Positions 1,991 to 20,250 of a DNA stretch of 22,678 bases are shown one piece after another. A model generated the notes under the pieces. That model had not been told where the DNA came from and ran no database searches. It worked only from the letters and a program-made list of their open reading frames with translations. The position numbers and the translations under genes are program-made. The stretch's first letter is position 1. Each line of letters opens with the position of its first letter. Source of the DNA: a virus; IMG/VR virus record IMGVR_UViG_3300043466_003754, positions 1 to 22,678 of that record, one strand, 5' to 3'.

Positions 1991-4900
1991 TTACCTCCCT
2001 ATTACAAGCCAGTTCAGGCTGGTGGATATTGTGTTAGTTCTTAGGATTCTTGCGCTGAATCCAGTCAGAGTTGAGCCGTCAAAGCTTGGGTCGGAGAAGG
2101 ATGCGTTCTGAGTGGCGGTCGCTGACGAGTTCGCAGTCACCAGCACCGAAAAGTTTGCCTGTGTAGCGGTTGCAGCGCTACACAGCACAGATAGCCCAGT
2201 GACCGCTATGCCTGTGTTCGTGTTTGCTGTTGGAGTCACCTGTATAATGCCGCTTGCGATGTTTGCAGCAAACATCATACCAGTTGTTTCAAAATCACTA
2301 TTCGTACCAATTGTTCCCGTAGCGCTCCTTCCAATTTCCTCGCTACCAAATACGACCTTTCCACCGTTTGCAAGGGTGACATTTTGAGTGTTGGCATTCA
2401 TTGTGATTCCGCCATTGGTTACCGTAAGCCCAGTTGTTGCAGTGACCGTAGTGCTTGCAACAACCGATGCTGTTGCTGTTAGGGATGAAGCAGTAAAGGA
2501 ACCATCTGTTTTCAATGCACCTGCGCCTGATCTGTAAAGAGTTGTATCTGTTCCAAGCGTTAGACCAGTATCCGTGCTCTGGCTGGTTAGCTCAACTGCC
2601 GTTTTGCCGGTGGCAGGAGTGGAGAAGCCAAGGCTCGCTTTTACATCGCCAGCAACATCAAGGACGTTTGCTGTCCCTGAGTACAACTCAACTGGGCTGG
2701 ATGAGCCACCGAATACTAGTCCACTTGCGCCAACGGAGATTTCGTCTCGAGCACCACCCGTTGATGCTTTGAGCCTGAGCTTTCCCCCCTGGGACGTGTC
2801 AATGTTTAGTCCGCCCCCCTCAAACGTAACGCCAGAGGTAACGAAACCAGGCGTCCAAGAACGAACAACCGTACCCTCTTCAAAAAGAACCCCGTCTGCC
2901 CAGAAGTAGTTACCGATGACATCGGCAGTATTCGTAAGGAGAATGAGCGGCCGCACAGATGTCGTCGTCCCTCCAGTGGTGAATGTGATGCTCATGCGGC
3001 GCCATCCCTCTTCGTCGGCCTGGAATTCCGTGTGGGCACCAGAGTTTGCAAGCTCAGTCCCGCCTCCTCCGGACTGCACGACTAGCCTTACGTTGTTTGC
3101 CCCGTTTAGCAGGCCAACTTTTATGTATGCAGAGAACGTATATATCGTGCTTGGAACAACATTGATATCGTCACCTTCGTATTGCCGATATGCAGCGATA
3201 GAGGCATCAGAGGTAGATACGGTTTCAACCCTTACAGCCTTTGTTCCAAACCTGCGAATTTCTTGATCCAGAAAGAAATATGTAGTAGCAGGGTCCCCGT
3301 ACCAGTTATCTGGCAATTGAATTGAATCAACATAACTAAATGTAATGTTAGAAACATACGGCTTGCTTCCGTCGTCGCTTGACATCCGAAGGTACGCGTG
3401 AAGGTAGCGGTTGTGCCCAGAAATGTTTGATGAAACATTAGAGATCACGGCGTTGGCGGACCCACCTGAGACGTATGCGCCAGTTGTGTTTGCCCCGACA
3501 GTAAACGCAGATGCTGTCGCAGTAAGGATTAATGCATTAGCGTTATTGTATCCAGCTGGGGTAATACCACTAATGTTTACTAGCTGACCAGCAGCAAAGG
3601 AGTTCTGTGATGTATAGGTAACAGCGGTGCCGTCTCCTACCACGTTGGTAATTGATGCCATAACGCCAGATCGTCCGTGCATAGTTGCCGCCCCGCCAGA
3701 AACAAACGTTCCAGTTGCCGCATTTGTCACCGTAAACGTAGAGCCAGATGCAGTGGCAAGGCGAACATTTGCAAGGTTATACGCCACTGGGTCTACCCCA
3801 GTAATCGTAACTAGCTGACCAGCAACAAACCCGTGCGCCGCGCTCGTCGTATACGTGACCGTCCCACCTGCTGCGGTGACGTTAGAAACCGTTGCCGTTG
3901 TAACCTGATAGGCAACCTCGGAGACCAGTCCGCCAGAAGCGTATGTTCCCGTCGCCGCATTGGTAATCCTAAATTTGGTTGCAGTGATACCAGCAGATAG
4001 AACCACTTGGTTGCTTAGGTTGTATCCGTTTGGCGATGCGCCAACAATGTTGATCACGTCCCCTGCGGCAAAAGAGTGACCGCCCGAGCATGTAAATTCA
4101 ATCGTTCCAGCTGACGGTGTGGATGGCGCAATTCCAGTAATAACTGCAGTGTTTTTTACGCCAGAGGCTTGGTAGACAAAGGTGCTCTGTGTCCCCGAAG
4201 GCTCAAACCCACGAGCAACAGACCAGCCAGACGTTGTGTCGTATGAAGCGCCAGCGTCAAATTCGTAAAGCGCTTGACCCCAGCGAACTTTAAACTGCTT
4301 TCTAGCGGCAACGTTTGCTTCCCCAGCCTCGTCAGTTACCTGGATTTGCCAGTAGTACACAGTTCCGTTAACAAGACCCGTAATACCCGACCACCCAGCC
4401 CCGGGCATCCAGGTCGGCTTAGTTGCGTTTGGCGTAAGGCTTACAGATGTGTCTCCAACATGCGCGGCGTCAACCACCACCCCAGAGTCAAAGTACGTCG
4501 TCCCACCGCTTGACGCAGAATAGATTCGGAGTCGCCACGATGCGCATGGGCCGCCGCCGCCGTCAGTATATGACCAGGAGAATTCGGGCATGGCATATTG
4601 AGAGGTGTCGGTCCACTCTTGCGGGTCGCTAAGGTTAACGATCCTAGCGAGACTTGTACCGTCGGACTCGCCGCTTGGCTTAATCGGTGTAACCGTAGGA
4701 TAAAAGGTACCCGTGCCGCCACCCTCATCTGGCGGCTCTTCTGGATCTGGCGGAGGAGTGCTGGTAATTTCGGTATACGTAAGCGTGATGAATGGAGCGA
4801 CCGCACCAGAGATTCCGCTTGCGCCGCCTTCCTGAGAATAGAACTCGTACCAGGCGTTGTCTGAACCGGCACCCTCTTCGTTAGACTTTAACTGTATTCC

Positions 4901-5413
4901 GTAGTTTGCTGCCGCCCCGCCCCCAGTAACAGTTGCTGGCGCCCATGCGCGGACAATATCTGTGATGTCAACAGTAAGATTTGTTGGACTGCTTGGGCGA
5001 GATGAAGGCGTTGAGACAGTTGCCCTGCCGGTGGTTGTTGAGGCTGGCTTGTTAGACCATTCAAGCGCATTGTCGCCGTAAAAAATCTCGTCATTTCCGC
5101 GCGTACCAGCATTCCAAGAGGCGGTAACTCGGTCAATTTGCATAGTCGTTGCATAAAATGTCCCGTGCCCACTTCGTGTATACCCGCCCACAGTCCCGTC
5201 GTTAGCCCGCGCGCTTTTAAGAGTTAGAACGGCGCTTGTAATTGATTCAACGTCGCTAAAGTCAGTCGTAAACTGAATATATGACCTAAAGTCGTATAGT
5301 GCGGACTCTCCAATTGCAAGGTGGTAATCTTTTCCCGCGCCTAGGCTAACGCTATTGAGCCGCTCAAATATTGCCCAACCGTCTTTTGATACCGCAAAGG
5401 TTTTAGTTGCCAT
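1991..5413 (-). CDS. Tail fibre / receptor-binding protein with DNRLRE-like domain and beta repeats
   Basis: This 1140-aa protein is modular. Residues 1-215 resemble a DNRLRE domain (CBM96-like): SYIQFTTDF near the start, ITSAVLTLKS, WNAGTRG, LEWSNKPAST, then VDITDIVRAW and NYGIQL. A PPPDPEEPPDEGGG linker follows near residue 218, then a beta-sandwich resembling FN3 (about 240-385). Three repeats of about 75 residues (about 425-495, 503-574, 585-653) share the pattern FAAGQLVTITGV..YNLAN...FTVTNAATGTYVSGG. Residues about 700-855 look like a CBM_4_9-type jelly roll ending in SWTPGF. The end is a low-complexity stalk and a beta-rich tip. Such modules usually bind surface glycans, so it is probably the adhesion fibre. 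Its ATG is 5 nt after the preceding stop. Confidence 0.75.
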   Translation of the reverse strand: MATKTFAVSKDGWAIFERLNSVSLGAGKDYHLAIGESALYDFRSYIQFTTDFSDVESITSAVLTLKSARANDGTVGGYTRSGHGTFYATTMQIDRVTASWNAGTRGNDEIFYGDNALEWSNKPASTTTGRATVSTPSSRPSSPTNLTVDITDIVRAWAPATVTGGGAAANYGIQLKSNEEGAGSDNAWYEFYSQEGGASGISGAVAPFITLTYTEITSTPPPDPEEPPDEGGGTGTFYPTVTPIKPSGESDGTSLARIVNLSDPQEWTDTSQYAMPEFSWSYTDGGGGPCASWRLRIYSASSGGTTYFDSGVVVDAAHVGDTSVSLTPNATKPTWMPGAGWSGITGLVNGTVYYWQIQVTDEAGEANVAARKQFKVRWGQALYEFDAGASYDTTSGWSVARGFEPSGTQSTFVYQASGVKNTAVITGIAPSTPSAGTIEFTCSGGHSFAAGDVINIVGASPNGYNLSNQVVLSAGITATKFRITNAATGTYASGGLVSEVAYQVTTATVSNVTAAGGTVTYTTSAAHGFVAGQLVTITGVDPVAYNLANVRLATASGSTFTVTNAATGTFVSGGAATMHGRSGVMASITNVVGDGTAVTYTSQNSFAAGQLVNISGITPAGYNNANALILTATASAFTVGANTTGAYVSGGSANAVISNVSSNISGHNRYLHAYLRMSSDDGSKPYVSNITFSYVDSIQLPDNWYGDPATTYFFLDQEIRRFGTKAVRVETVSTSDASIAAYRQYEGDDINVVPSTIYTFSAYIKVGLLNGANNVRLVVQSGGGGTELANSGAHTEFQADEEGWRRMSITFTTGGTTTSVRPLILLTNTADVIGNYFWADGVLFEEGTVVRSWTPGFVTSGVTFEGGGLNIDTSQGGKLRLKASTGGARDEISVGASGLVFGGSSSPVELYSGTANVLDVAGDVKASLGFSTPATGKTAVELTSQSTDTGLTLGTDTTLYRSGAGALKTDGSFTASSLTATASVVASTTVTATTGLTVTNGGITMNANTQNVTLANGGKVVFGSEEIGRSATGTIGTNSDFETTGMMFAANIASGIIQVTPTANTNTGIAVTGLSVLCSAATATQANFSVLVTANSSATATQNASFSDPSFDGSTLTGFSARILRTNTISTSLNWLVIGR
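3440..4140 (-). repeat. Three tandem ~75-residue beta repeats within the tail fibre gene
   Basis: The encoded units share FxAGQ/DxVxIxG, then a YNxxN turn, then an FTV..AATGTYVSGG end. DNA identity is partial but visible: ACTAGCTGACCAGCA occurs at 3579-3593 and again at 3810-3824, 231 bp (77 codons) apart. A fourth clear copy closes the neighbouring tail tip protein (about 5460-5670), and two diverged relatives lie within it (about 7980-8240 and 8360-8620). Confidence 0.75.
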
Positions 5414-9101: not shown

Positions 9102-12100
9102 CTAGATCCTCCCGCCCGCGGTCCTAAATGCGCTCACCTGAGCGCGTGTGATCTGGTCCGCCAACTTCCTGATGTCCTGATCGCTGCGCACGACTGGGTT
9201 GTTGATGTTGATTGTAACATTTCCAGTTGTACCAGAGGACCCCGCTCCGCCGAGCATGCCCATCAGGCGGGAGGAGATGCTGTTGTTAAGCACCATGCCG
9301 CTGCTTCTTGGAATAAAGAGCTCTGGGCCCTGCTCGCCGACAAGGCCGATGCGACCTGAGCGCATTTGCCCGCCCTTGGCGAACTTGCCACCACCGTATT
9401 TAAGAATAAGGGTATCAATTTCGTTGGACAGGTTAAGAATATCCGAATACTTTGTTGCCTTCTTAAAGGCCTGCATTTTATCTCCCAGATTCCTTGATGC
9501 GCCATAAACGTAACCAGGCGCGCGCCCAGCAAAGTGCGCGGTATGCATTGCGCCAATGCGCTCCTCGAACAACTTTGTTAGGGCTTTTCGGTTTGTGATC
9601 GCCATCTTATCAACCAAGTCGCCTGGGTTTGCAGCCGCCATGACCTGGTTGGTTAGTTCAGCAACGCGCACCGCCTTCCTTGTAAGGTAGTCGGTGAGGA
9701 CCCCAAAGCCACCCTTCTCCATTGCATCGGCGAGCTTTCCGCCCCAGTTGATGTTCGGCATGTTCGGGTTGCCAATCTGGGCAAGCGTTCCATCAATGAT
9801 GCTGTTCATCTGCGACAACTGGGTTCCAAGCATTACCTTGGTAATACCAAAATTGCTTTCAAGATCCTTATAGAGTTTCTCTAGCCGGGCCTTGACCGCA
9901 TTCTCTCGCTGCTTTGCAGAAAGTTTTGGGTCAGATAGGATATTTGCGATATCCTCGTTATACTGATTGAACATATTAGTCATTTCCTGAAGAATCAGTT
10001 GCTGACCCTTCTTGAAATCTTCCAGTCGCGCCTTAGTTGCCCGGGTTGCCGCGAGCCACTCCTTAGACGCCTTAGCCTCGTCAAGAATGTTCTCAATCCC
10101 ACCAAACTGAAGCTTATCAATGTCCTGCTGGTATTTTAGTTGCGCCTGACGCAACTGAACAGCACGCTCAAGCGGATCAATTGACTGGTCATACTGCTTG
10201 AGTATCTCCACGCTTAGGTCGTACTCTACCTCCGCGATTGCCTTGATACGATCAAGTTCCTTTCGGCGCTCCTTCTCAATGGACATTCGGCGCTCAACTG
10301 CCTTGAGGCTAATCTTTCCATTTGTAAGGTCTGCCTCAGTGAGCGGCTCAATGGACTCAAGAATATCTTTGTACTCTTCAAACGATCGAGTAATCCCCGA
10401 CTGATTTTCAAATTGGGCAAAGCCCATCTCCTGCTCTGTTTGCATGATTTCTTCCATCGTCAAGCCAGCCTCCTCAAGGCCGGTATACGGATTGACCATG
10501 GAGTCTGGATTTAGCAGATCTTGAAGCGCCCCCTCGGCAAGGGTCTGGAGCAACTGAACGGCTTGGGCATATTGCTGCTTGACCTTATTCAGTTTCCAGT
10601 TCAGGGTGTCAGTACTTCCCGCCGCACGGTCGGTGGCGTTGACAAGGAGTTTCATCTGATCCTTGGTTGCCTTGACGTTTTCTGCGCTTCGTTCTTGCTG
10701 GCTCGCAATGTATGAATTTCGCTCACCGACTCGGAACGCAATATTCTCCGCCTCGCGCTCGTCGGGACCCATGGCTAGCCTGTTTTCCCTCCACTGCCTC
10801 TGCAGCTCAAGCATCTCCTTTTCTTTTGCAATCAGCCTTTCGTAATGAACAACAGCCCTTTCTCCGTACTTCTCAACCATCTCTGTGCGAACTTCTGCGG
10901 GGTCCTCAAGGGTTGTCGCCATCTGATTAAGCGTTGACAGGTATCCGCTTGTTGGGGCGCTTGTTGTGCTGGTCTGGGTTCCGTAAGGACCAGAAGGTAC
11001 GGCAGGAGTCGTCGGCGCGGCACCCTGACCGCCTCTGCCCCTCATTGCAAATCCAACATCGCTAACGGCATTTATCTCATCTTGGGTTAGATCCTTCAGT
11101 CCAGTCCAAGACCTTCCATAGTTAAATTTGTTAATTTCATCAATCTTTGTTGCGGTCTCTTTCCTGCGCTCTTCTTTTTGAACTTCGCTGACCGCGTAAA
11201 TGACCGCCGCCGCAGCGGCGATGGCAAGAAGCACTGGGGCAAGCGGGGCGAGCGCCGCCATGAGCCCACCAAAGGCAGGGACCATGCCCCCGATGAGTCC
11301 TCCGAGTAGCGGTATTTGTTTCAGAACGTTAAGGATTGGCCCACCCTTGATCTTTGCAAGGCCGCCAATGCTTGAGCCAATGCCCTTCATGCCATCGGTT
11401 ACCGTTTTAAATGCCCCGGCTGGAACAACGTTCCTAAGCGCGCCAAGTGCGAAAATAGCAGTTGATACATTGGCGACTGTTGATGCAAGTTCGGCGCCCT
11501 CCTTATTGTCGCCAGCCGCTGACTGCGCAACGCTTCCAGCGAGCATTCCAGCCATGCCGATTCCAGATGCCCTGTTCGCCATTCCAGAAAGAAGGTTTCT
11601 TCCAGTGATTACTGGAGATGATGGACCAGCTGGTCCAATCATCTGGATCGGCCCGCCAATTGGCTTCATTGAGTTCGGGAGAAGCACCATCCCCTGGCTT
11701 GCCGCCTTGGCGGACATGGCAAGGCGATCAAACTTAAAGATAAGATCACTTACGCCACGAGAGATTGCAGCAAATCCAACAACAATCTTATTGAATACAA
11801 ACGCACCAGCAAGCGCAACCCCAAGTGCCGCAACTGGGCCCTTGAACGTTGCAATTAGGCGAAGGAATCCAGTAATCGCCTCAACAATGACTTGAAGCGC
11901 CGGCATGATTGCCTCAAGACCAGCAATTATCACCCCGAACACTGCCCCAGAGAACGCTCCTGCCATTTCCCCAACGAGTGGAATGATGTGGTCCCTTATC
12001 GCAACAAGGAGTGGCTCAACGGCAGTTGCCATTGACTGCATCGCGTCCCTAAACCCAAAAGTATTGTCCTTATACGCCTGCGCAAGTATCCCGATTGCAG

Positions 12101-14786
12101 TTGTGATAATTATTATTTGCGTTAGAAGAGGGTTTGCCGCACCGAATGCAAACAACGCCTTTGTCAGTGCGGCTGCGTATACCAGTTGCCTAATGAGATC
12201 ATTTTTAAGCAGTTCAACAACTGCAATAATTCCCCTGAATAGACCGCCAAATGCCAAGTTGACACCACTTGCCATCTTGTTAGTTTCGTCTCCAGCAGCC
12301 TGCACAACGCGCTGGAAATCACCAAACGACTTGACGACAACTGTCATCACAACGTTGCCAACGTATGTAAGCGCCTTTGTTACTTCCGTAATTACCTTGC
12401 CAAACGCTACTGCGCGCTTTCTGACCTCGTCCTTTTGGAGGAATTGACCAAGCGCATATGTTGTATCCCTAATTGACTCAAACATCGGCTTGAAGGCATC
12501 AGCAACAAGCGACTGCGATGTGTCAGCGACCGTGCTAAACGCCCCTTGGAATGTCTTGGCTTGCGCCTCCATTCCGCCACCAAAGTCCCTCTCAAGACCG
12601 CTAAGAATGGCACGCGCGGCTGCTTCTCCTGAAATCTGACCATTCGTGGTGAGGCGGCGAACGGTTTCAATTGCGTTTGTCTCAAGTTGCGCAAATAGTT
12701 GAGAGTGTTGGGCTTGGACCTTGTCGCGGCTACCACTTCCATCTGTGGTTATTTCACGCATCAACTGCGAAGCAATGTACTTATATCCGCCGATTCCTGC
12801 GTTTGCCAGCTGCATCATGTCGTTTTGATAGACACGACCAGCCTGCTTCATCTGACCAAGGGCGTATGTAATTCTTCGGAAGGCGTCTGCGCCGCCACCA
12901 AGTGCGGAAACCGCGTTACCAACCGCAACAATTCCGCCTTCAAACTTCTCGGTTTCAGGATTCTTTCTTAGTACTTCGTCCAGCTCAAATCCGAATGCGC
13001 GCATGCGGAGCGCCGACTCATTGAGTTCCGCAAACCTAAACGGCGTAACGTTTGCGAACTCCCGGACGGTTTCAATCATCCCCTCAGCAGCGCCCGCGGC
13101 ATTGTCATAACCTTGCCGAATAAAGTCAATCTTCTTAGTTGCATCAAGAAGCTCAACTTGCTGCTGGTTGAGCCCGTCGGCTGCCGCGTACGCTTGATCG
13201 GCTTGATTCTTGAACAGCGTGGTGAACCCTACCGTGCTCTGCTCAACCATTGCGTTAAAGCCGATAACGCCGCCCTTAAGGTGACCGAATACCTGCCCTA
13301 GCTCTGTGGCAATCCCTTGAAGGACTTGGTAGCCAGCGGCCATCCCAAGCACGTTTTTGACTGATCCAAAAATTGCATCTTGGGACTTGGCGACGCGCTG
13401 AATGCCAGCCGTTGCCCCGCCAGCGCTAGAACTTATTGATCGGAAGCCGTTAGAAAGATTATTGGCAGATCTAGCCGCGCGATTTGCGCTATCGCTAAAT
13501 TGTGATGCGGCACGAGCAGCCCGCTGCGTTCCCTGGGCGGCACCCTCCGCGCCTCCGCCAGCGGCAGCGGTTCTTCCCCTTGGCTGAGACCATCGTCCGC
13601 CAAGTTTCCCCCACTCCGCCATCTGGCTGACATTGAGCGGAGGGGTTAGGGACCCAGCCGGGCGAACTTTTCGTGCAATTAGGTCTGGTTCAGTTGTGGA
13701 CTTTGCTGCGGCGCCGACCTTATCAAGACCAGCGGCAGCCTTATCGGCTGATGCAGCGACCTTGTCAAGTTTTGCCTCAACAGAAGCCGGCCCCTTTCTT
13801 CCGCTAATATTTACTCGAGCAAGATCTCGCTGTATTGAAGCGTCCGTGACTGGACTTACCCTTGATGCTCGTGGGGAGCTTGGGGCAACCCTTGCCACCT
13901 CTGCGGCTACTGCCTTTGGGGTTGACTTCGCAACAGCCTTCTTTACCTCTGAGGTTGCCGCCTCTGCGACCTTTGCCGACTCCTTGGCGGCTTCTACAGT
14001 TGCCTTTGCGGCGGCGGTTCTTGAGCTAGTCGCTTTCTTTGTCGCGGTAGATTCCGCAGAGATTTGCTTTTTTGTTTCAGCGGCTTTCTGTGTTTCAGCA
14101 GCAACTTCCTTGGCGGCTTTTTCTAGCTTTGCGTCATGAGCGCGCTTTTCGGCAGCACCGACCTCTCTTTTCTCGTCGTCAATGCGCTTTGTTGCGGAGG
14201 CTAGAAACTCTTCCCTAAGTGCCTTTTTTGCAGATGCAGATCCAGCGTCAGCAGCAGCATCAAGCTTATCTTGGGCGGCTCGTAAATCTTTTCCTGCAGC
14301 CTCAACTTTTGCATTCTGTATCTCAACCGCCCTACCGCCCGCGGTAACTTGAGACTTCGCAAGAGCGCCAATTTTCTGAACCTGTGTACTAAGGTCCCCA
14401 AGTTCTGACTTTTTAGCCGTAAGGATTTTATCTGTTGCAGTAGATAGTTCATCAATTTTTCCGACAAGCGATCCGCCAGCCTTCTGGGTTGGATTAAGCA
14501 TTCCCCTTGCCCGGGAAAGATCCGACTGCGCTTCCCTAACTAGTTCCGAAACATCGGTTGCGGAATATCCCCCAGCCCGACCAGTTGAAACTCCGCCAGT
14601 CCCTTGAGTTCTAACGGATGTTCCGGACTGAGAAATTGCCTTTTGGGCAGCCTCAGCAGCCTTCTCAACCAGCTTGTATGTGGCAAGAAGTTTTTGGAGG
14701 TCGCCTCTTATCTTCTCAAGGTCGGCTGCGTTCTTAGCCGCAACTGAGAGTTCTAGGCGTATTTCAGAAGTCTGATCGTCAGCCAT
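9102..14786 (-). CDS. Tape measure protein
   Basis: At 1894 aa this is by far the longest gene and follows the frameshifted chaperone, with which its start overlaps (ATGGCTGA). Residues about 1-400 are Ala/Lys/Glu-rich and likely coiled coil. Residues about 490-770 match the conserved tape measure N-domain: VEQSTVGFTTLF, REFANVTPFRFAELNESA and LGQMKQAGRVYQNDMMQLAN. Hydrophobic segments lie at about 865-910, 935-1005 and 1170-1198; such segments are thought to help DNA cross the membrane. Near the end (about 1822) is LVGEQGPELFIPRSSG, a motif common at tape measure C-termini. The protein sets tail length and is ejected at infection. At about 0.15 nm per residue it would imply a tail near 280 nm, if all of it spans the tube. 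Confidence 0.92.
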   Translation of the reverse strand: MADDQTSEIRLELSVAAKNAADLEKIRGDLQKLLATYKLVEKAAEAAQKAISQSGTSVRTQGTGGVSTGRAGGYSATDVSELVREAQSDLSRARGMLNPTQKAGGSLVGKIDELSTATDKILTAKKSELGDLSTQVQKIGALAKSQVTAGGRAVEIQNAKVEAAGKDLRAAQDKLDAAADAGSASAKKALREEFLASATKRIDDEKREVGAAEKRAHDAKLEKAAKEVAAETQKAAETKKQISAESTATKKATSSRTAAAKATVEAAKESAKVAEAATSEVKKAVAKSTPKAVAAEVARVAPSSPRASRVSPVTDASIQRDLARVNISGRKGPASVEAKLDKVAASADKAAAGLDKVGAAAKSTTEPDLIARKVRPAGSLTPPLNVSQMAEWGKLGGRWSQPRGRTAAAGGGAEGAAQGTQRAARAASQFSDSANRAARSANNLSNGFRSISSSAGGATAGIQRVAKSQDAIFGSVKNVLGMAAGYQVLQGIATELGQVFGHLKGGVIGFNAMVEQSTVGFTTLFKNQADQAYAAADGLNQQQVELLDATKKIDFIRQGYDNAAGAAEGMIETVREFANVTPFRFAELNESALRMRAFGFELDEVLRKNPETEKFEGGIVAVGNAVSALGGGADAFRRITYALGQMKQAGRVYQNDMMQLANAGIGGYKYIASQLMREITTDGSGSRDKVQAQHSQLFAQLETNAIETVRRLTTNGQISGEAAARAILSGLERDFGGGMEAQAKTFQGAFSTVADTSQSLVADAFKPMFESIRDTTYALGQFLQKDEVRKRAVAFGKVITEVTKALTYVGNVVMTVVVKSFGDFQRVVQAAGDETNKMASGVNLAFGGLFRGIIAVVELLKNDLIRQLVYAAALTKALFAFGAANPLLTQIIIITTAIGILAQAYKDNTFGFRDAMQSMATAVEPLLVAIRDHIIPLVGEMAGAFSGAVFGVIIAGLEAIMPALQVIVEAITGFLRLIATFKGPVAALGVALAGAFVFNKIVVGFAAISRGVSDLIFKFDRLAMSAKAASQGMVLLPNSMKPIGGPIQMIGPAGPSSPVITGRNLLSGMANRASGIGMAGMLAGSVAQSAAGDNKEGAELASTVANVSTAIFALGALRNVVPAGAFKTVTDGMKGIGSSIGGLAKIKGGPILNVLKQIPLLGGLIGGMVPAFGGLMAALAPLAPVLLAIAAAAAVIYAVSEVQKEERRKETATKIDEINKFNYGRSWTGLKDLTQDEINAVSDVGFAMRGRGGQGAAPTTPAVPSGPYGTQTSTTSAPTSGYLSTLNQMATTLEDPAEVRTEMVEKYGERAVVHYERLIAKEKEMLELQRQWRENRLAMGPDEREAENIAFRVGERNSYIASQQERSAENVKATKDQMKLLVNATDRAAGSTDTLNWKLNKVKQQYAQAVQLLQTLAEGALQDLLNPDSMVNPYTGLEEAGLTMEEIMQTEQEMGFAQFENQSGITRSFEEYKDILESIEPLTEADLTNGKISLKAVERRMSIEKERRKELDRIKAIAEVEYDLSVEILKQYDQSIDPLERAVQLRQAQLKYQQDIDKLQFGGIENILDEAKASKEWLAATRATKARLEDFKKGQQLILQEMTNMFNQYNEDIANILSDPKLSAKQRENAVKARLEKLYKDLESNFGITKVMLGTQLSQMNSIIDGTLAQIGNPNMPNINWGGKLADAMEKGGFGVLTDYLTRKAVRVAELTNQVMAAANPGDLVDKMAITNRKALTKLFEERIGAMHTAHFAGRAPGYVYGASRNLGDKMQAFKKATKYSDILNLSNEIDTLILKYGGGKFAKGGQMRSGRIGLVGEQGPELFIPRSSGMVLNNSISSRLMGMLGGAGSSGTTGNVTININNPVVRSDQDIRKLADQITRAQVSAFRTAGGRI

Positions 14787-15326
14787 TGTTCAACAACTTC
14801 GCCTTTACATCTGGGCTACCAAACGTATGAACCAATTGTTCAAACGAGGTAGTGCTGCCTACCGTTTGCTTGCTTCCAGGCTGCGGCGATTTTGACGCTT
14901 TCTTCATTTCCGAATCTCGCTTTTCTGCATATGCCGCAAAATCAGCAAGTTGCGGGAGCGTCAGTTGGAGAAATTGTTCTGGAGTGAAGCCAAATGCGTC
15001 AGAATATGACGCAGATAGCTCACCCCAATTTATATCGCTCCAGCCGCTTCCTCTTTTCCCTCGGGGTCCTCATCGGAGCCAAGGAGACCGCTTGCACGAA
15101 GGACCTTCTGGACCTCTTCCTGCATGGTCTGGATATTGAACCGCTCGCCAACCTCTGTTTCCGTGACCTCTGGCTCGTCCTTGCGGATTACCAGCCAGAG
15201 AATCTTTCGCACGACGGCGAACCTTGCAAGGTCAATCTTGTCGAGCGGACCAAACTTGTCCTCAATCTCAGCAAGGTCATTGAGGTTAAGGGCCTTCTTA
15301 GCCTTCAGTTCCGTAAGTGTTCCCAT
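14779..15326 (-). CDS. Tail assembly chaperone, long form made by -1 frameshift
   Basis: Ribosomes that slip back one base at GGGAAAA (15060-15054) leave the short frame after codon 91 and read 91 more codons to TGA at 14781-14779, giving 182 aa. The second part starts RGSGWSDINWGELSASYSDAFGFTPEQFLQLTLPQLADFAAY if written in pieces: RGSGWSDINWGEL, then SYSDAFGFTPEQFLQLTLPQ, then LADFAAYAEKR. This W....asayG.tpeef..lT..el pattern is typical of the T-part of lambda gpGT-type chaperones. These proteins coat the tape measure and recruit tube subunits, and are absent from the virion. The second frame has no good start codon of its own and its stop overlaps the tape measure start. The coordinates enclose the whole shifted product. 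Confidence 0.85.
15030..15326 (-). CDS. Tail assembly chaperone, short form (gpG-like)
   Basis: This is the unshifted 98-aa product, starting at an ATG with GGTGGGAG about 5 nt upstream and ending IlE-Ala style as ...EEAAGAI at TAA (15030-15032). It is helical and charged (KKALNLNDLAEIEDKFGPL, then ARFAVVRKILWLVIRKDEPE), as usual for the first part of siphovirus chaperones. Position between tube and tape measure genes is diagnostic. The slippery site is at codons 90-91. The messenger leader upstream is about 60 nt long and contains an inverted repeat, CATCCCC (15345-15351) with GGGGATG (15379-15385), plus the palindrome AAGATATCTT (15358-15367). Confidence 0.85.
   Translation of the reverse strand: MGTLTELKAKKALNLNDLAEIEDKFGPLDKIDLARFAVVRKILWLVIRKDEPEVTETEVGERFNIQTMQEEVQKVLRASGLLGSDEDPEGKEEAAGAI
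15054..15060 (-). promoter_or_regulatory. Slippery heptamer GGGAAAA for -1 programmed frameshift
   Basis: Read on the minus strand, G-GGA-AAA is in the X-XXY-YYZ register of the chaperone frame (codons GGA 15059-15057 and AAA 15056-15054). It closely resembles the lambda site GGGAAAG. Both tRNAs can re-pair after moving back one base. The shifted frame is open for 91 codons and has the expected chaperone sequence. Confidence 0.85.
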
Positions 15327-15390
15327 ATTTCTCCCACCTATTTACATCCCCGCCCAAAAGATATCTTCTCTTGCTTGTGGGGATGGGTTG

Positions 15391-15420
15391 ATTATACGTC
15401 CAGAACGCTCACCTGTGAGC
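15391..15420 (-). promoter_or_regulatory. Candidate regulated promoter ahead of the chaperone / tape measure operon
   Basis: The minus strand has a perfect TATAAT at 15396-15391, 64 nt before the chaperone ATG. No -35 consensus is seen. Instead, the expected -35 position is covered by the inverted repeat GCTCAC-CT-GTGAGC (15407-15420), whose flanks continue the symmetry with one mismatch (AA and TT). This arrangement suits a promoter that needs a bound protein, or an operator. Function is inferred. Confidence 0.45.
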
Positions 15421-15440
15421 ATTTGGGAATCTAGTGTTTT

Positions 15441-15493
15441 GGCGGGCCGAGGGAAAAACCCCCGACCCGCCGATTAAAGCCTTAGGCTTTAAT
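15441..15493 (-). terminator. Tandem hairpins after the tail tube gene
   Basis: Immediately after the tube gene stop the minus strand has ATTAAAGCC-TAA-GGCTTTAAT (15493-15473, 9-bp arms), which includes the stop codon. Next is a 13-bp stem, GGCGGGTCGGGGG with CCCTCGGCCCGCC (15471-15441), around a T5 loop. The second stem is fully paired only on the minus-strand RNA, through two G-U pairs, which points to that direction. There is no U-tract after it (AAAACAC), so it may be a partial terminator or an RNA-stabilising end. Confidence 0.6.
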
Positions 15494-16101
15494 TACGCCT
15501 CAATGAGGCAGATGGTCGGCTCAGCCGTTCCACCCGTCGTCACGAGAAGCGAGGTGTCCACAACCGCCATGAAGTCAACATCTTGAACGATGATGTCTTC
15601 TCGGGTGAACGGAATGTTAAGGCTCATCGTGTACGCCTTTGGCAAGTGGATCTTGACCGTCTTGGACGAGTCATCGGTCCGCTGGTGCGTAAAGCGCACG
15701 TAGAGTGGGCGTGGGAGACCGGCTCCTGCCGTGGTCGCCTGTCCCGAGCCGCCGTCAACGTCTGGATCAAACACGAACGAGCTTGGCTCGGCCGTGCTGA
15801 TATACGTTGCGGTCCCGTTGCTGTTAAAGAAGTTCTTGAGGCTGTTTACATTCAACTCAACCCGGCGGGCTCGCGCCTCAACCTTGCCACCGAAGTGGGC
15901 CTTCATGATTGGGAAGTTAAACTGACCGTAGAACTCGCGCTCCTGATAATTGATGTCAAACTCGACATCGCCGGCGATCTGTCCGATGGAGAATACCGCG
16001 GTGTATCCGCCCGACGCAGAAGTAAAGTACGATGAAGTACCCTTTGCGCGGCCGCTCACCCAGTAAGCCACCTCAAGTACGCCTGATCCAAGCGTAAGCA
16101 T
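15493..16101 (-). CDS. Major tail (tube) protein
   Basis: This 202-aa protein is beta-rich and lacks signal or membrane segments. It includes IAGDVEFDINYQEREFYGQ, KVEARARRVELNVNSL and FTREDIIVQDVDFMAVVDTS, which read like the beta strands of a siphovirus tube subunit that recognises its neighbour. Its length is normal for tube proteins (about 150-350 aa). The strongest evidence is context: it lies between the tail terminator and the frameshifted chaperone, where the tube gene is placed in siphoviruses. AAGGAG lies 8 nt before the ATG, a good start suited to high expression. Strong hairpins right after it fit an abundant, separately ended message. Confidence 0.8.
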   Translation of the reverse strand: MLTLGSGVLEVAYWVSGRAKGTSSYFTSASGGYTAVFSIGQIAGDVEFDINYQEREFYGQFNFPIMKAHFGGKVEARARRVELNVNSLKNFFNSNGTATYISTAEPSSFVFDPDVDGGSGQATTAGAGLPRPLYVRFTHQRTDDSSKTVKIHLPKAYTMSLNIPFTREDIIVQDVDFMAVVDTSLLVTTGGTAEPTICLIEA

Positions 16102-16117
16102 TATTTTGCTCCTTGCG

Positions 16118-16516
16118 TTAAGATTTTATTAGGTTATATCGGATAATTCTCCGATATTCCAACGACTGGCTATCGTATCCATCTGCCTCATAAACCTTAT
16201 GGCACAAATGGACAACAACACCATTTGGTCCCGAGAGCCGCTTGCGATTCAGTAGTTCGTCAATCCGCTTAGATATGGCATTAAGTTCCGTTGTGCTGTT
16301 CGCGCTGGAGACAAGAACATCAACGGTTGGCCTATCTACTGGCAAACCGACATCGCTAAAACCGTTAAGCACGGCAATCCGAACTGCTGGGAGGCTTCCC
16401 TGCCCAACATTGGTAATGGGGTACACCTTTTTATCAGTGTTCGTTCCAGCAAGGAGCGTCTGGAGAGCGCTATCTCCGCTGAGAGCACTAAAGAAAGACT
16501 CGTACACACCAACCAT
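16118..16516 (-). CDS. Tail terminator protein
   Basis: This 132-aa protein has the look of the tail terminator/DUF3168-like family: a helical start (YESFFSALSGDSALQTLLAG), then KVYPITNVGQGSLPAVRIAVL, a middle VDVLVSSANSTTELNAISKRIDELLN, and a C-terminal strand EYRRIIRYNLI. Family proteins form a hexameric ring that stops tube growth and joins tail to neck. It lies just before the tube gene, 16 nt away, as usual. There is no SD sequence before the ATG; a promoter-like pair (TTGAGC, 17 bp, TACATT) ends 6 nt upstream. This suggests a leaderless message that restarts late transcription beyond the plus-strand cassette. Confidence 0.75.
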   Translation of the reverse strand: MVGVYESFFSALSGDSALQTLLAGTNTDKKVYPITNVGQGSLPAVRIAVLNGFSDVGLPVDRPTVDVLVSSANSTTELNAISKRIDELLNRKRLSGPNGVVVHLCHKVYEADGYDSQSLEYRRIIRYNLIKS

Positions 16517-16522
16517 GCAAGT

Positions 16523-16551
16523 AATGTACGCCTATATACGTCGCCGCTCAA
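16523..16551 (-). promoter_or_regulatory. Candidate leaderless promoter for tail genes
   Basis: On the minus strand TTGAGC (16551-16546) and TACATT (16528-16523) are 17 bp apart, each matching 4 of 6 consensus bases. Six bases separate the -10 from the ATG of the tail terminator gene, so transcripts would begin at the start codon. The gene has no SD sequence. A second pair, TTGACC (16558-16553) and TATAGG (16536-16531), 16 bp apart, is an alternative. Confidence 0.45.
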
Positions 16552-16592
16552 TGGTCAAATGATCTACGCAGATGGGCTAAGCCTAGACTTTT

Positions 16593-16615
16593 TGCAGTGT
16601 TACAGTAACAATGCA
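16593..16615. promoter_or_regulatory. 23-bp palindrome, probable operator between divergent genes
   Basis: The arms TGCAGTGTTAC (16593-16603) and GTAACAATGCA (16605-16615) flank a central A and match at 10 of 11 positions; the inner 13 bp are perfectly symmetric. It sits in the divergent gap and overlaps a weak plus-strand promoter candidate (TAGACT 16584-16589, 17 bp, AACAAT 16607-16612). The form fits the binding site of a dimeric repressor or activator. The regulator is unknown. Confidence 0.55.
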
Positions 16616-16618
16616 CTG

Positions 16619-16918
16619 ATGGCAACGCCGAGGATTCCAGATGATCTTCCCTCCTCTGGCGAGGAGGTAGTTGCGCTTTCCTATTGGAGGGGTCATATGG
16701 ACGCACGAATGGAAGATCTTTCGCGGCGAGTAGAGAGCATTGAGGTCAAGGTTGACCAGATCCACCAAGCCGTCCAAGGAATTGTTTCTACCCTTAGCGC
16801 AAAAGAGGCAACAGAGCGGCAGGCTAGGGGGATTATTCGGTGGGCGCTCCCAGACGGCGCGGCAGCCATAGCGGTCGTTATTGCGTTAATTGCCATTGCC
16901 ATGAGGTTTGTCCCCTAG
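16619..16918 (+). CDS. Coiled-coil protein with C-terminal transmembrane helix (XhlA-like layout)
   Basis: From ATG 16619 this is 99 aa. Residues about 27-62 (MDARMEDLSRRVESIEVKVD and onward) have heptad spacing typical of a coiled coil. Residues about 79-97 (DGAAAIAVVIALIAIAMRF) are a single hydrophobic helix at the C-terminus. This order is that of XhlA-type haemolysin/holin accessory proteins, but similar layouts occur in unrelated small phage membrane proteins. The start is uncertain: 16619 has no SD but has an AACAAT hexamer 6 nt upstream, while ATG 16697 has a strong GGAGGGG and would give 73 aa, losing only the N-terminal part. It is the first plus-strand gene of the cassette and runs opposite to the flanking tail genes. 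Confidence 0.65.
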   Translation: MATPRIPDDLPSSGEEVVALSYWRGHMDARMEDLSRRVESIEVKVDQIHQAVQGIVSTLSAKEATERQARGIIRWALPDGAAAIAVVIALIAIAMRFVP

Positions 16919-16938
16919 GCAGTTTTCCACATTATTGT

Positions 16939-16967
16939 GAACACACCGCTGTTCTATGCTGTATACT
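16939..16967 (+). promoter_or_regulatory. Possible promoter / inverted repeat upstream of the HTH gene
   Basis: TATACT (16962-16967) is a good -10 match about 58 nt before the HTH gene start. The expected -35 region has no consensus but contains the inverted repeat GAACA-N6-TGTTC (16939-16954). The pair could be a controlled promoter, perhaps bound by the HTH protein itself. This is weak evidence. Confidence 0.3.
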
Positions 16968-16990
16968 GCTATCCGTTGGGGCAACTAACG

Positions 16991-17012
16991 CCTACCCCGT
17001 AGCCGGGCTAGG
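16991..17012 (+). other. Small hairpin just before the HTH gene ribosome-binding site
   Basis: CCTACCCCG (16991-16999) pairs with CGGGCTAGG (17004-17012) around a four-base loop, with one internal mismatch. It lies 3 nt upstream of GGGAGG, so it could affect translation or be part of an operator. No U-tract follows, so a terminator is unlikely. Confidence 0.35.
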
Positions 17013-17025
17013 TCAGGGAGGTTTA

Positions 17026-17277
17026 ATGGCAAGCAAAGCAACCGCTATTGCGGAATTGCAAAAGATTCAGTCTCATAAACCGCGCGGCGGAAAGTGCACC
17101 GCTGGTCTTGTTTACAAGATCCTGCGGGCCAATGATCAGGCGGCTCTCCTTGGGGCGCTCAGGGATCAAACCATTGACTCCAGCACAATTAGTGTTTGGC
17201 TTGACCGCAGGGGATACAGGGTGAGGCGACATACTGTTGCCCGCCACCGGCGAGGGGAGTGTGCGTGCAGTGAGTGA
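17026..17277 (+). CDS. Small HTH-type DNA-binding protein with RHRRGxCxC tail
   Basis: The ATG at 17026 follows GGGAGG by 4 nt and gives 83 aa; longer readings lack an SD. The N-terminal half contains GGKCTAGLVYKIL (Cys24) and helical DQAALLGALRDQ. Residues about 50-75 (IDSSTISVWLDRRGYRVRRH) read as a helix-turn-helix in which a new rule (sTIs.wL...Gy.v...Tv) is followed by ARHRRGECACSE with Cys79 and Cys81. This layout occurs in small actinophage proteins often labelled HTH DNA-binding, some near terminase genes, so a small-terminase-like role is an alternative to a regulator. The three cysteines could bind a metal. Its stop overlaps the phosphoesterase start, so the two are translationally coupled. 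Confidence 0.65.
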   Translation: MASKATAIAELQKIQSHKPRGGKCTAGLVYKILRANDQAALLGALRDQTIDSSTISVWLDRRGYRVRRHTVARHRRGECACSE

Positions 17278-18475
17278 ACTAGATGAACTGAAAGCAATAC
17301 AGTCAGAACGATCAGATGCAAAGCGACCGAAAAGGCAGCACCCAGAGGGCTGGGAGCCAGGAATCACATGGAACGGAAACGAAGGAACCGTTACGACAAG
17401 CGGTGGTCCGCTTGATCAGGCGGCGGATTGGTCAGCAGTACTTAAGGTGTGGGGTCTTGATCCCGACCACTTTGAAGTTGTTGAGCCAATCCTTTTTAAT
17501 GTTTGGGGCAACCCAGAGGGCGTTCCGAATCGCCAGTGGAAGGGCAAGGTCGTTCGCAAAAGCGTAGAGCGCGGCGTTGACCTGAATGACCTTATTGATG
17601 AAATAAAAAAGCATAAGCCCGGAAAAGTCACAACGTTTGATGGCGACACGGCACTTGTCGTGGGGATCTCAGACCTTCAGATGGGCAAGGGTGAAGGGGG
17701 CGGCTCCGAGGGCATCGTCTCTAGATTCCTAGCCGGAATTAATGAGGTTGAGAATCGCTGGAGGGAGCTCGTGAAGACGGGCAGGAAGCTTGACAGGCTT
17801 GTGGTGCTTGGCCTTGGGGACCTCATTGAGTCCTGCGACGGTCACTACGCCATGCAGACCTTCCAGAACGATCTCGATCGGCGAGAGCAGGTCAAGGTCG
17901 TGCGACGACTTCTTGTCAAGGCACTAACCTCATGGGCGAAGATTGCCCCGAGGGTTGTGGTCGCTTCGGTTCCAGGGAACCACGGAGAGAACCGACGCAA
18001 TGGAAAGGCATACACAACATTCAGCGACAACGATGACGTTGCGGTGTTTGAGCAGGTTGCAGAGATCCTTGCTGCCAACCCAGATGTGTACGGGAATGTG
18101 ACATTCATGTTCCCACAAGACGAACTCACGCTAACGATGGATGTTCACGGCACAATCCTTGGGCTCGCCCATGGGCATCAGGCCCGTCGGGGGGGCGCGG
18201 TATCAGCCGCAAAGATCAAGGCGTGGTGGAAGGATCAGGCGTATGGGATGCAGAGGGTTGCAGATGCAACCATTCTGGTGACAGGCCACTACCACCACCT
18301 CTCGGTCCTTACCGAGGGGATCAGGACGCACATTCAGGCACCATCTCTTGATGGTGGCTCTCAGTGGTTTACTGAGACGGCTGGCGTGCAGTCTGCGCCT
18401 GGGCTTTTGACTTTTACAATAAGTGGGCGCGGATGGGATGATCTGCGCGTTCTCCCTTGCGAAGTTAGCGCATAG
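17270..18475 (+). CDS. Calcineurin-like metallophosphoesterase
   Basis: Starting at GTG 17270 (10 nt after GAGGGGAG, overlapping the HTH stop by 8 nt) this is 401 aa; a TTG at 17237 is a longer alternative. Signature motifs appear in order: SDLQMG (134-139, where the family usually has DxH), GLGDLIES (181-188), GNHGE (236-240), HGHQ (301-304) and TGHYHH (338-343). These supply the two-metal site of phosphoesterases related to SbcD/Mre11 nucleases. The first 120 residues (GWEPGITWNGNEGT, WGLDPDHFEVVEP) are outside the fold and resemble the leader of phage phosphoesterases. It may act on DNA ends or a small phosphodiester; substrate is unknown. Its end overlaps the convergent neck gene by 11 nt. 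Confidence 0.85.
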   Translation: MSELDELKAIQSERSDAKRPKRQHPEGWEPGITWNGNEGTVTTSGGPLDQAADWSAVLKVWGLDPDHFEVVEPILFNVWGNPEGVPNRQWKGKVVRKSVERGVDLNDLIDEIKKHKPGKVTTFDGDTALVVGISDLQMGKGEGGGSEGIVSRFLAGINEVENRWRELVKTGRKLDRLVVLGLGDLIESCDGHYAMQTFQNDLDRREQVKVVRRLLVKALTSWAKIAPRVVVASVPGNHGENRRNGKAYTTFSDNDDVAVFEQVAEILAANPDVYGNVTFMFPQDELTLTMDVHGTILGLAHGHQARRGGAVSAAKIKAWWKDQAYGMQRVADATILVTGHYHHLSVLTEGIRTHIQAPSLDGGSQWFTETAGVQSAPGLLTFTISGRGWDDLRVLPCEVSA

Positions 18476-19004
18476 CCCTTCGTATTCTTTGGGCGATTCG
18501 GTTCCGGACCGCTGCAGATAGATCCTTGGCAATATCGTCATGGAGCTTCTTCAGGGTCCGGGATCGCTCAAACTGATTTATCCCGTCTTCAAAAAATCCG
18601 TAGCGCTCTTCCACCTTGGGGAAATACCTCTCGCCCTTATCAACTGGGTCTCCACCATAAGTGACGCTGATATAACCGCCTTTGCCGTAGTTTTCGCTAT
18701 AGATTGAGTATGGGGCGCCTTCAGCAGTGAGAGAGTTTTGAAGGCGACCAGTTTTTACTGGGGTTCCACCGCCTGGGCTCATATCCCCTTTCTTCCTTGT
18801 TCTGCTGAAAATCTGGGCTAGGCTTTTCCCATACCTATTCCCATAAACAGCCTCTCGGACCTTACCGAGCGCTTGCCGCTGCATCACCTCAATTGCTCCA
18901 AATGATGCATCTGACCTCAGGTTTCTAGAGAGGCCATCAAGCATGCTTATAGCATCCTCAAGTGCTTTTATAGATCCACGTGGCCCTATTGTTGTTCGTG
19001 CCAT
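18465..19004 (-). CDS. Neck / tail completion protein, HK97 gp10-like
   Basis: This 179-aa protein has the hallmark TPVKTGRLQNSL at residues 81-92, found in HK97-gp10-like proteins (usually P..TG.Lr.S). Before it is a helical region rich in basic residues, then the motif is followed by strands such as YISVTYGGDPV, and the end is a basic helix (RNRIAQRIRRAMR). The family acts at the head-tail junction during tail attachment. The ATG shares a base with the stop of the head closure gene (TAATG), a sign of coupled translation. It is the last of the neck genes; its 3' end overlaps the phosphoesterase gene by 11 nt. Confidence 0.8.
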   Translation of the reverse strand: MARTTIGPRGSIKALEDAISMLDGLSRNLRSDASFGAIEVMQRQALGKVREAVYGNRYGKSLAQIFSRTRKKGDMSPGGGTPVKTGRLQNSLTAEGAPYSIYSENYGKGGYISVTYGGDPVDKGERYFPKVEERYGFFEDGINQFERSRTLKKLHDDIAKDLSAAVRNRIAQRIRRAMR

Positions 19005-19336
19005 TAGCTTCTCTCTGCGCGCTCAGCCCTCACAATGATGTGATGCTTAAGGCTCTCTTGCTCAAGTCCTATGACAGCGTACGAATATCCGTCTGCTACA
19101 AGGGTATCTGCCTGTCGCGGCCTATTGGTACCAGTAAGGAATGGAAGCCAAAAGCGATACACCTGATGTTCCAGCGGTCCGGTTCCAGTCTGAATGTCGG
19201 TACCCTGCTGCTGCTGGTAGTGGCCCTTCTTGGTCCAAATGGTTGACGTGGACACAGTCGGCGTCCCGTCGTCTGCGTGTCCAGTCTGGCCGTTTCTTTT
19301 TAGCGTGATGTCAGTTACAAATCCTGGCAGCGTCAT
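19004..19336 (-). CDS. Head closure (stopper) protein
   Basis: This 110-aa protein has a small beta-barrel-like sequence: ITLKRNGQTGHADDG, TSTIWTKKGHYQQQQGTDIQ, VYRFWLPFLTG and ADTLVADGYSYAVIGLE. Size, order (adaptor, this, gp10-like) and pattern of strands match the SPP1 gp16 / head-tail joining family, which closes the portal channel after DNA packaging. The start and stop both overlap their neighbours as TAATG, so the three neck genes form one coupled unit. The assignment rests mostly on position and size; similarity of sequence is modest. Confidence 0.7.
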   Translation of the reverse strand: MTLPGFVTDITLKRNGQTGHADDGTPTVSTSTIWTKKGHYQQQQGTDIQTGTGPLEHQVYRFWLPFLTGTNRPRQADTLVADGYSYAVIGLEQESLKHHIIVRAERAERS

Positions 19337-20250
19337 TAGCGCACCGAGATAAACCGATACGGATCAAGCATCGTGCATGCTGCGGATGGGATGGCAAGAA
19401 CGCTAGACGCCCCTCCCTGAGGCGTGTCAGAGTACATCTCCATCTCTCCAACCCGAAGCCTAGAAAGTCCTGTCATTCCCTGCTTTGATAGGCTGTCGCG
19501 GGCAATAAGCTCCACGGTAGTAAGTGCAACAGCGTCCTTGATGTCGCTTGGTGTGTACTGATACCCGTGAACATAGGTAATCTCTGCAACCGGCTCAACG
19601 AGACCAAGCGCAACAATTGCTGGAAATAGAGAATAGGTTACATTCGCAAGGCTGGTAATCTCAACGTATCCTCGGTCAGCGTTGACAAACGTATCGTTAA
19701 CCGTAAATTCGGCATTTTGCTGGTTGCTCACATAGACCTTAAATGAAGATACCGACACAATCGGCCTCTCCTTTGGATACACCCGTCGGCTCTTTTGGTT
19801 CCAGACGTGGCGCTCAGTGGTCTGCCGGTAGGCAAAACTGTATCCAACATATGAGTCTGCCAGTCTAGATGCAACAGAAATAAACGAGTCAATCGTCTGA
19901 TCAGACAGGTCGGCCCCAGACGAATCGGTCAGGTCGCCCATCTGATAAGATCGGAACTCCTCAGCCGTCAGGTACCCAAGGGTCCTGCCGCGGATTGTGG
20001 TCCATGAGCTGGTCGCATTGGTTGAGCTGTTGACGAATCGGTAGGCGTGGAACTGACCCTCGGCTGCGGCGTCATCGTCATAGGAGTATGATGAGACAAG
20101 CGCAACAAGGGTAATGACCTGCCCAAGGCTGGCAAAAGTGCCCGTCTGGGCATCGGCGTCCGCCTTGCTGGAAGCCCGTCCAAGTTCAATCTTGTTATAG
20201 GACGCGATCTTCGTGGCAATGTCAGGAACTGGAACCACTACTCGAATCAT
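19336..20250 (-). CDS. Head-tail adaptor with extra N-terminal beta domain
   Basis: This is 304 aa, about twice the size of usual adaptors. The C-terminal part (about 91-304) opens with GYLTAEEFRSYQMGDL and contains the helical ISVASRLADSYVGYSF, then RPIVSVSSFKVYV and ITYVHGYQYTPSDIKDAVAL, the usual features of gp6/gp15-type adaptors that sit under the portal. The N-terminal part (about 15-88) reads as an FN3-like sandwich: YNKIELGRASSKAD, then SYSYDDDAAAEGQFHAYRFVNSSTNATS. The ATG lacks an SD; CACAAT ends 6 nt before it with TGGACT 17 bp further up, a weak leaderless promoter candidate. The gene diverges from the glycosyltransferase-like gene. Confidence 0.75.
   Translation of the reverse strand: MIRVVVPVPDIATKIASYNKIELGRASSKADADAQTGTFASLGQVITLVALVSSYSYDDDAAAEGQFHAYRFVNSSTNATSSWTTIRGRTLGYLTAEEFRSYQMGDLTDSSGADLSDQTIDSFISVASRLADSYVGYSFAYRQTTERHVWNQKSRRVYPKERPIVSVSSFKVYVSNQQNAEFTVNDTFVNADRGYVEITSLANVTYSLFPAIVALGLVEPVAEITYVHGYQYTPSDIKDAVALTTVELIARDSLSKQGMTGLSRLRVGEMEMYSDTPQGGASSVLAIPSAACTMLDPYRFISVR

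Follow-up and report, generated by a model that had tools for sequence, protein, structure and literature searches.

A predicted internal promoter with a conserved -10 box between the tail-tube and tail-assembly chaperone genes of a group of uncultured phages

The closest described arrangements to the locus studied here belong to phages CKA15 and SPP1, whose published accounts were consulted in part. In the Listeria phage CKA15, an intrinsic termination site was measured after the tail-tube gene, and CKA15_114 and the chaperone gene form an operon flanked by a measured start and stop of its own; according to the same part of that account, the late promoters display an extended -10 and no -35 consensus, their late motif including a TG before the hexamer, TGCTATATTA, and some of the measured termination sites were missed by a terminator predictor (PMC12282133). 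For the Bacillus phage SPP1, the part consulted describes a predicted Rho-independent terminator at 11,255-11,304, over the end of gene 17.1* and before the chaperone gene 17.5, as well as a late promoter, PL1, located upstream of gene 1, with a canonical -10 and an atypical -35 (PMC6316719). Since the CKA15 and SPP1 layouts concern the same gene boundary as the one described below, a cut and restart of transcription at this place would be of a known kind.

In this work, we analysed a viral DNA stretch of 22,678 nt (hereafter, the window, meaning the whole stretch), in which the structural genes considered are all encoded on the minus strand, and the ORF listing places a gap of 166 bp between the tail-tube gene and the first frame of the tail-assembly chaperone gene. 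Along the coding strand, from 5' to 3', this gap is sequentially organized in hairpin 1, hairpin 2, the inverted repeat GCTCACAGGTGAGC, the sequence GTATAAT, a leader stem-loop and a Shine-Dalgarno sequence, followed by the chaperone start codon at 15326 (Table 1). The initial annotation had located the element between tube and chaperone genes, and this placement holds: the chaperone assignment is backed by a profile match, and the tube protein, for which searches of PHROG and Pfam gave no match, owes its name to that annotation and to its position. The tape-measure assignment derives from tblastn against a phage collection, with ~25% identity over 11-12% of the protein to, for instance, Arthrobacter phage tape-measure genes. 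The chaperone gene also contains an in-frame GGGAAAA -1 slippery heptamer at 15054-15060, after which the -1 frame is open in a three-frame translation, presumably as expected for a chaperone of the lambda G/GT type with programmed frameshift. Elsewhere in the window, a gene coding for 1140 aa (1991-5413) displays a sub-threshold Pfam match to E1_FCCH (residues 517-577) and a match to PHROG 9998, of unknown function; an Rfam scan of the window returned nothing at the gathering cut-off.

Table 1. Coordinates of the features of the tube-chaperone gap and its neighbouring genes in the window.
Feature	Position	Strand	Basis
Tail-tube (major tail) gene, 202 aa	15493..16101	-	ORF and IMG/VR relatives; name from the initial annotation and position
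Hairpin 1, 10-nt perfect arms, beginning with the third base of the tube stop codon	15473..15493	-	Repeat search; fold of upstream segment, z -7.3
Hairpin 2, GC-rich, 13-bp stem, no U-tract	15441..15471	-	Repeat search and folds; not flagged as terminator-like
Inverted repeat, arms GCTCAC and GTGAGC around AG; imperfect extension 15399-15428	15407..15420	-	Sequence; absent from 22/22 other gaps
-35-like hexamer CTCACA, 17-bp spacer to the -10	15414..15419	-	4/6 to TTGACA; TTCACA in six related gaps
-10 box G-TATAAT, conserved core	15391..15397	-	One GTA[TC][AC][AC]T in 23/23 distinct gaps; 8-mer z -3.9
Leader stem-loop CATCCCC ... GGGGATG, beginning at about the predicted +1	15345..15385	-	Repeat search; leader fold, z -2.5
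Chaperone ribosome-binding site AGGTGGGAG	15331..15339	-	Sequence; GGGAGAAA is the best-conserved 8-mer of the gap
Tail-assembly chaperone gene, first frame, 98 aa	15030..15326	-	PHROG 2115 'tail protein', E 1.2e-6; three-frame translation
Tape-measure gene, 1894 aa, downstream of the chaperone	9102..14786	-	ORF; tblastn to tape-measure genes

A phage collection was searched for cultured relatives, without a match either for the window DNA in megablast or, in tblastn, for the capsid protein, the head-tail adaptor and the tube proteins of the window and of L024; likewise, 207 stretches of the genome_contigs set fitted the tube pattern, and none of them was a relative. Three overlapping IMG/VR scans with the tube protein recovered 18, 21 and 58 loci. 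From these, the comparison set was integrated by the window and 33 uncultured viral contigs with a tube-chaperone gap, corresponding to 23 distinct gap sequences; as the gaps are homologous, they do not constitute 23 independent cases. Loci L013, L018, L051 and L066, with a truncated gene or one at the edge of its contig, were left out, as were L019, which is the window itself, and L020-L023, which are the same contigs as L009, L004, L008 and L007; L024 and L027 also share a contig, as do L026 and L033. Another 22 contigs (15 distinct rows), in which a different gene directly follows the tube gene, were counted apart, and 18 of them were tested further. WhiB, taken as a sign of an actinobacterial host, was found in none of 18 records (its control matched in 1 of 14), and a single-subunit RNA polymerase in none of 18, a result without weight, since its control matched nowhere.

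The TATAAT hexamer was correctly reported in both letters and coordinates (15391-15396, minus strand), and it agrees with the -10 consensus at 6/6 positions. Hexamers of the form TA[T/C][A/C][A/C]T were found in all 23 gaps, and the pattern GTA[TC][AC][AC]T, which was defined post hoc after inspection of the gaps, occurs exactly once in each; it follows the large hairpin and precedes the start of the chaperone gene by 40-87 nt, and the letters conserved throughout are TAnnnT (23/23). The box reads TATAAT or TATACT in the nearer relatives of the window, in L011 and in L012/L014; TACAAT in L024-L031; TATCAT in L053, L055, L056 and L060; and TACCAT in L057 and L061. When eight of the 23 gaps were shuffled, one such box appeared in 5-9% of cases. 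The coding strand of the window holds a single copy, that of the gap, against ~5.9 expected; in long records the pattern is common elsewhere, with 43 occurrences in G017. Conservation of 8-mers was assessed by comparing the window's gap to seven representatives (L011, L012, L024, L025, L031, L053 and L057): the Shine-Dalgarno sequence GGGAGAAA ranked first (z -5.7), and the second rank was shared by GTATAATC, with 1.57 mismatches against 2.45 expected (z -3.9), and the hairpin word TAAGGCTT (z -3.9). An extended -10 is absent from the window, where ACG precedes the hexamer, and 2 of the 23 gaps carry TGn. We rejected the idea of a late promoter that the phage carries in many copies: in a search of the window and of six records taken in pieces, nothing nearly identical turned up apart from the element itself, and the next-best matches differed at 6 positions or more.

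Promoters of the sigma-70/sigma-A type have the consensus TTGACA at -35 and TATAAT at -10. The initial annotation held that no -35 consensus is present, which proved too strong, as CTCACA matches four of six positions at a 17-bp spacer and is thus weak rather than absent; it sits inside the inverted repeat, in its 5' arm with respect to the coding strand. TTCACA (5/6) was found 17 or 18 bp from the -10 in L001, L002, L004, L005, L006 and L017, with the CTCACA of the window at the aligned place, and the element of L004 reaches an 11/12 match to the sigma-70 consensus. In 16 of the 23 gaps, the best hexamer at 16-18 bp matches TTGACA at 2/6 positions, against a mean of 2.39 in shuffled gaps (at least 4 in 10% and at least 5 in 1.3%); since the -35 of these 16 is no better than that of shuffled gaps, a sigma-70 promoter there would depend on the -10 alone. 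The window resembles sigma-70/sigma-A promoters in its perfect TATAAT, its 17-bp spacer and its 4/6 hexamer, and the group differs from them in a -35 that in most gaps (16/23) is weak or no better than chance. The pair CTCACA and TATAAT is the joint best (10/12) of seven promoter-like sites in positions 12000-20000, where shuffles yield 5.2 such sites (sd 2.6), so a promoter-like site by itself constitutes no evidence. A stricter pattern, TTSACA-N16-18-TATAAT, was present in three of the 19 records searched; those from which L004 and L017 come have a single match each, located in the gap, and G017 has two, both elsewhere. Other places left uncovered by a crude ORF caller in these phages display TTGACA with TACAAT or TATGAT; spurious ORFs called over the gap masked the window's own site, and the list of other intergenic promoters is incomplete.

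The position, conservation and neighbouring genes of the element are direct observations. From them we infer that the tube-chaperone gap probably harbors an internal promoter of the sigma-70/sigma-A type, which would restart transcription for the chaperone, tape-measure and tip genes after the hairpin block. The core G-TATAAT and the weak CTCACA 17 bp upstream would be read by the primary sigma factor, with a predicted start near 15384, at the base of the leader stem-loop; the two stable hairpins located where the tube gene ends may protect or end an abundant tube transcript and lower read-through, and the promoter would then supply the chaperone, tape-measure and tip genes at a lower level of their own. 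A separate promoter for these three had already been proposed in the initial annotation, and the comparison now argues for it, as a -10 is kept in 23/23 gaps with a large hairpin upstream of each, and the repeat and spacer have changed; the backing is comparative. The predicted layout, with high tube output, then hairpins and then a new promoter, fits a cut and restart of transcription.

Tandem hairpins just upstream of the promoter had also been reported, and indeed the two found in the window are strong. In all 23 gaps the segment upstream of the promoter folds better than its shuffles (z -4.1 to -8.5), and all contain a large hairpin of 11-14 uninterrupted bp, preceded in 19 of them by a second one of at least 6 bp (missing in L053, L055, L056 and L060). 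The tandem hairpins agree with the GC-rich hairpin expected of an intrinsic terminator; after hairpin 2 the window has no U-run, the sequence there being AAAACAC, and a terminator scan did not flag the hairpins. One alternative takes the gap as purely an RNA element, in which a single long late transcript has its processing and stability determined by the hairpins and the leader stem-loop, and the box, rather than a promoter, is a stretch of A/U-rich RNA open to, for example, an endonuclease. The very stable upstream structure of every gap speaks for it, together with the missing U-tract of hairpin 2 and the lack of a called terminator; nevertheless, we consider it unlikely, because the letters conserved in all 23 gaps are those of a -10 box, TTCACA stands at 17-18 bp in the six related gaps, and the leader shows little sign of a conserved structure. 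Across gaps, the leaders fold with z between -2.9 and +0.7, and RNAalifold on nine leaders gave a weak consensus with an energy of -1.63, in which 2 of 13 pairs displayed changes on both sides. Owing to this weak consensus, a riboregulatory leader, with pairing between the Shine-Dalgarno sequence and a C-rich stretch, was not kept as a candidate. As a separate observation, the loop of the leader hairpin, CGTT[A/G]CGTTGACG, is kept in the six distinct gaps L053, L055, L056, L057, L060 and L061 (6/6).

The inverted repeat is present in the window where it was first described, and its imperfect extension has 14-nt arms that are 79% complementary. Repeats with 6-bp arms and a spacer of 0-4 nt were found in 2.5% of 12,258 shuffled 34-nt segments, the window holds 49 repeats of that size against 27 expected, and folds as stable as that of the repeat segment occur in 3.0% of 7,548 same-strand 34-nt segments; the repeat is mildly unusual, not striking. 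The initial annotation read it as an activator or repressor site that close relatives should share, and the comparison does not support this reading: the repeat is missing from the other 22 gaps, including those of phages whose tube proteins are 97-98% identical, and a search for further copies found it once within the window. In addition, none of the 23 8-mers over the repeat is conserved against the seven representative gaps (z -1.0 to +2.4). In IMG/VR, the repeat together with the -10 was found in two contigs only, and these gave no match in blastn with the window or in tblastn with the tube, chaperone and tape-measure proteins. Judged from these comparisons, the repeat is probably a feature of the isolate or of a small lineage that overlaps the -35 region, and a conserved operator is not supported.

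A more flexible form of this idea supposes that the chaperone operon is gated by an activator or repressor dimer bound across the -35, with a specificity that differs in each lineage, for which the repeat of the window, overlying the -35, would be one operator among several. Consistent with this, perfect repeats with 6-7-bp arms, unrelated to that of the window, occur within 42 nt upstream of the -10 in seven of the other 22 gaps (L012, L014, L024, L053, L055, L056 and L060), in which the repeat region folds at z -3.0 to -4.6, that of the window being -2.7. Conversely, in the remaining 15 the perfect arms reach 5 bp (four gaps), 4 bp (eight) or less than 4 bp (three), and repeats of this size are, as mentioned, common in the window; together with the lack of a shared repeat, of conserved 8-mers and of a second copy, this makes lineage-specific operators a quite improbable explanation. 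As for a chance match to the box preserved by shared descent alone, the homology of the gaps and its occurrence in 5.6% of shuffles of the window's gap would allow for it, but we find it very improbable, given that the box persists in 23/23 gaps in which the repeat and the spacer have changed.

The promoter reading can be further considered in the contigs counted apart (L034-L050, L052 and L062-L065), where the gene preceding the chaperone was a second tube gene in 18/18 of the contigs tested, with 38-52% identity to the first tube. Within 230 nt of the chaperone, GTA[TC][AC][AC]T was found in none of these 18 two-tube relatives, and thus the box goes with the single-tube arrangement and is not needed in the two-tube one. 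Among five hexamers sought, TATGAT was located 60-89 nt before the chaperone start in 16 of the 18, within the terminal part of the second tube gene, where it may be either coding sequence or another -10; therefore, the absence of the box does not show the absence of a promoter in two-tube relatives.

Furthermore, a small protein with a zinc ribbon and a helix-turn-helix was identified in 9 of 28 records, corresponding to 9 of 17 single-tube and 0 of 11 two-tube records (for instance, at L071:5766-5993, L068:15756-15986, L084:6413-6646, L082:19153-19464 and L073:33-287). It surfaced through weak Sigma70_r4 matches, present in 13 of 18 records at E <=0.001, of which only two records exceeded the curated cut-off, both in other proteins. 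Three of the zinc-ribbon/helix-turn-helix proteins were tested, and they match PHROG 686 'HTH DNA binding protein' as well as PHROG 836 'late transcriptional activator' (E 1.6e-6 to 0.004). The protein was found in 0 of 5 records of the L053-L061 group and in none of G002-G004, any of which may be a fragment. Its association with single-tube records follows kinship and says nothing on binding. One could speculate, and we give this very little credence, that single-tube phages share a portable insulator-plus-restart module, made up of the hairpins, a -10-led promoter and a structured leader; the sequence upstream of the -10 would change rapidly because a late activator encoded by the phage recognizes it, and the zinc-ribbon/helix-turn-helix protein would be the candidate.

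Compared with the described systems, the window would share with CKA15 a termination after the tube gene and a chaperone operon with its own start and stop, which were measured in that phage and are predicted in the window; it differs, as far as the part of the CKA15 account consulted goes, in that the chaperone operon of that phage includes CKA15_114, and in the TG before the late hexamer there, against TGn in 2 of 23 gaps here. The likeness to SPP1 lies in the predicted terminator between the tail-tube gene 17.1* and the chaperone gene 17.5, and in the canonical -10 and atypical -35 of PL1; as differences, the part of that source consulted reports no promoter ahead of 17.5, and the hairpins of the window lack a U-tract.

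Taken together, these results correct the reading of the inverted repeat, which appears as a lineage-specific feature, and they point to a promoter of ordinary type, not to a novel control site. If the internal promoter is real, the structural genes of this uncultured phage group would be transcribed in two units that meet between tube and chaperone, an arrangement mapped in CKA15 and proposed here from comparison alone. Tail assembly uses tube subunits in large numbers and chaperone and tape-measure proteins in small ones, and such a split would help explain how these different amounts are obtained from one gene cluster.
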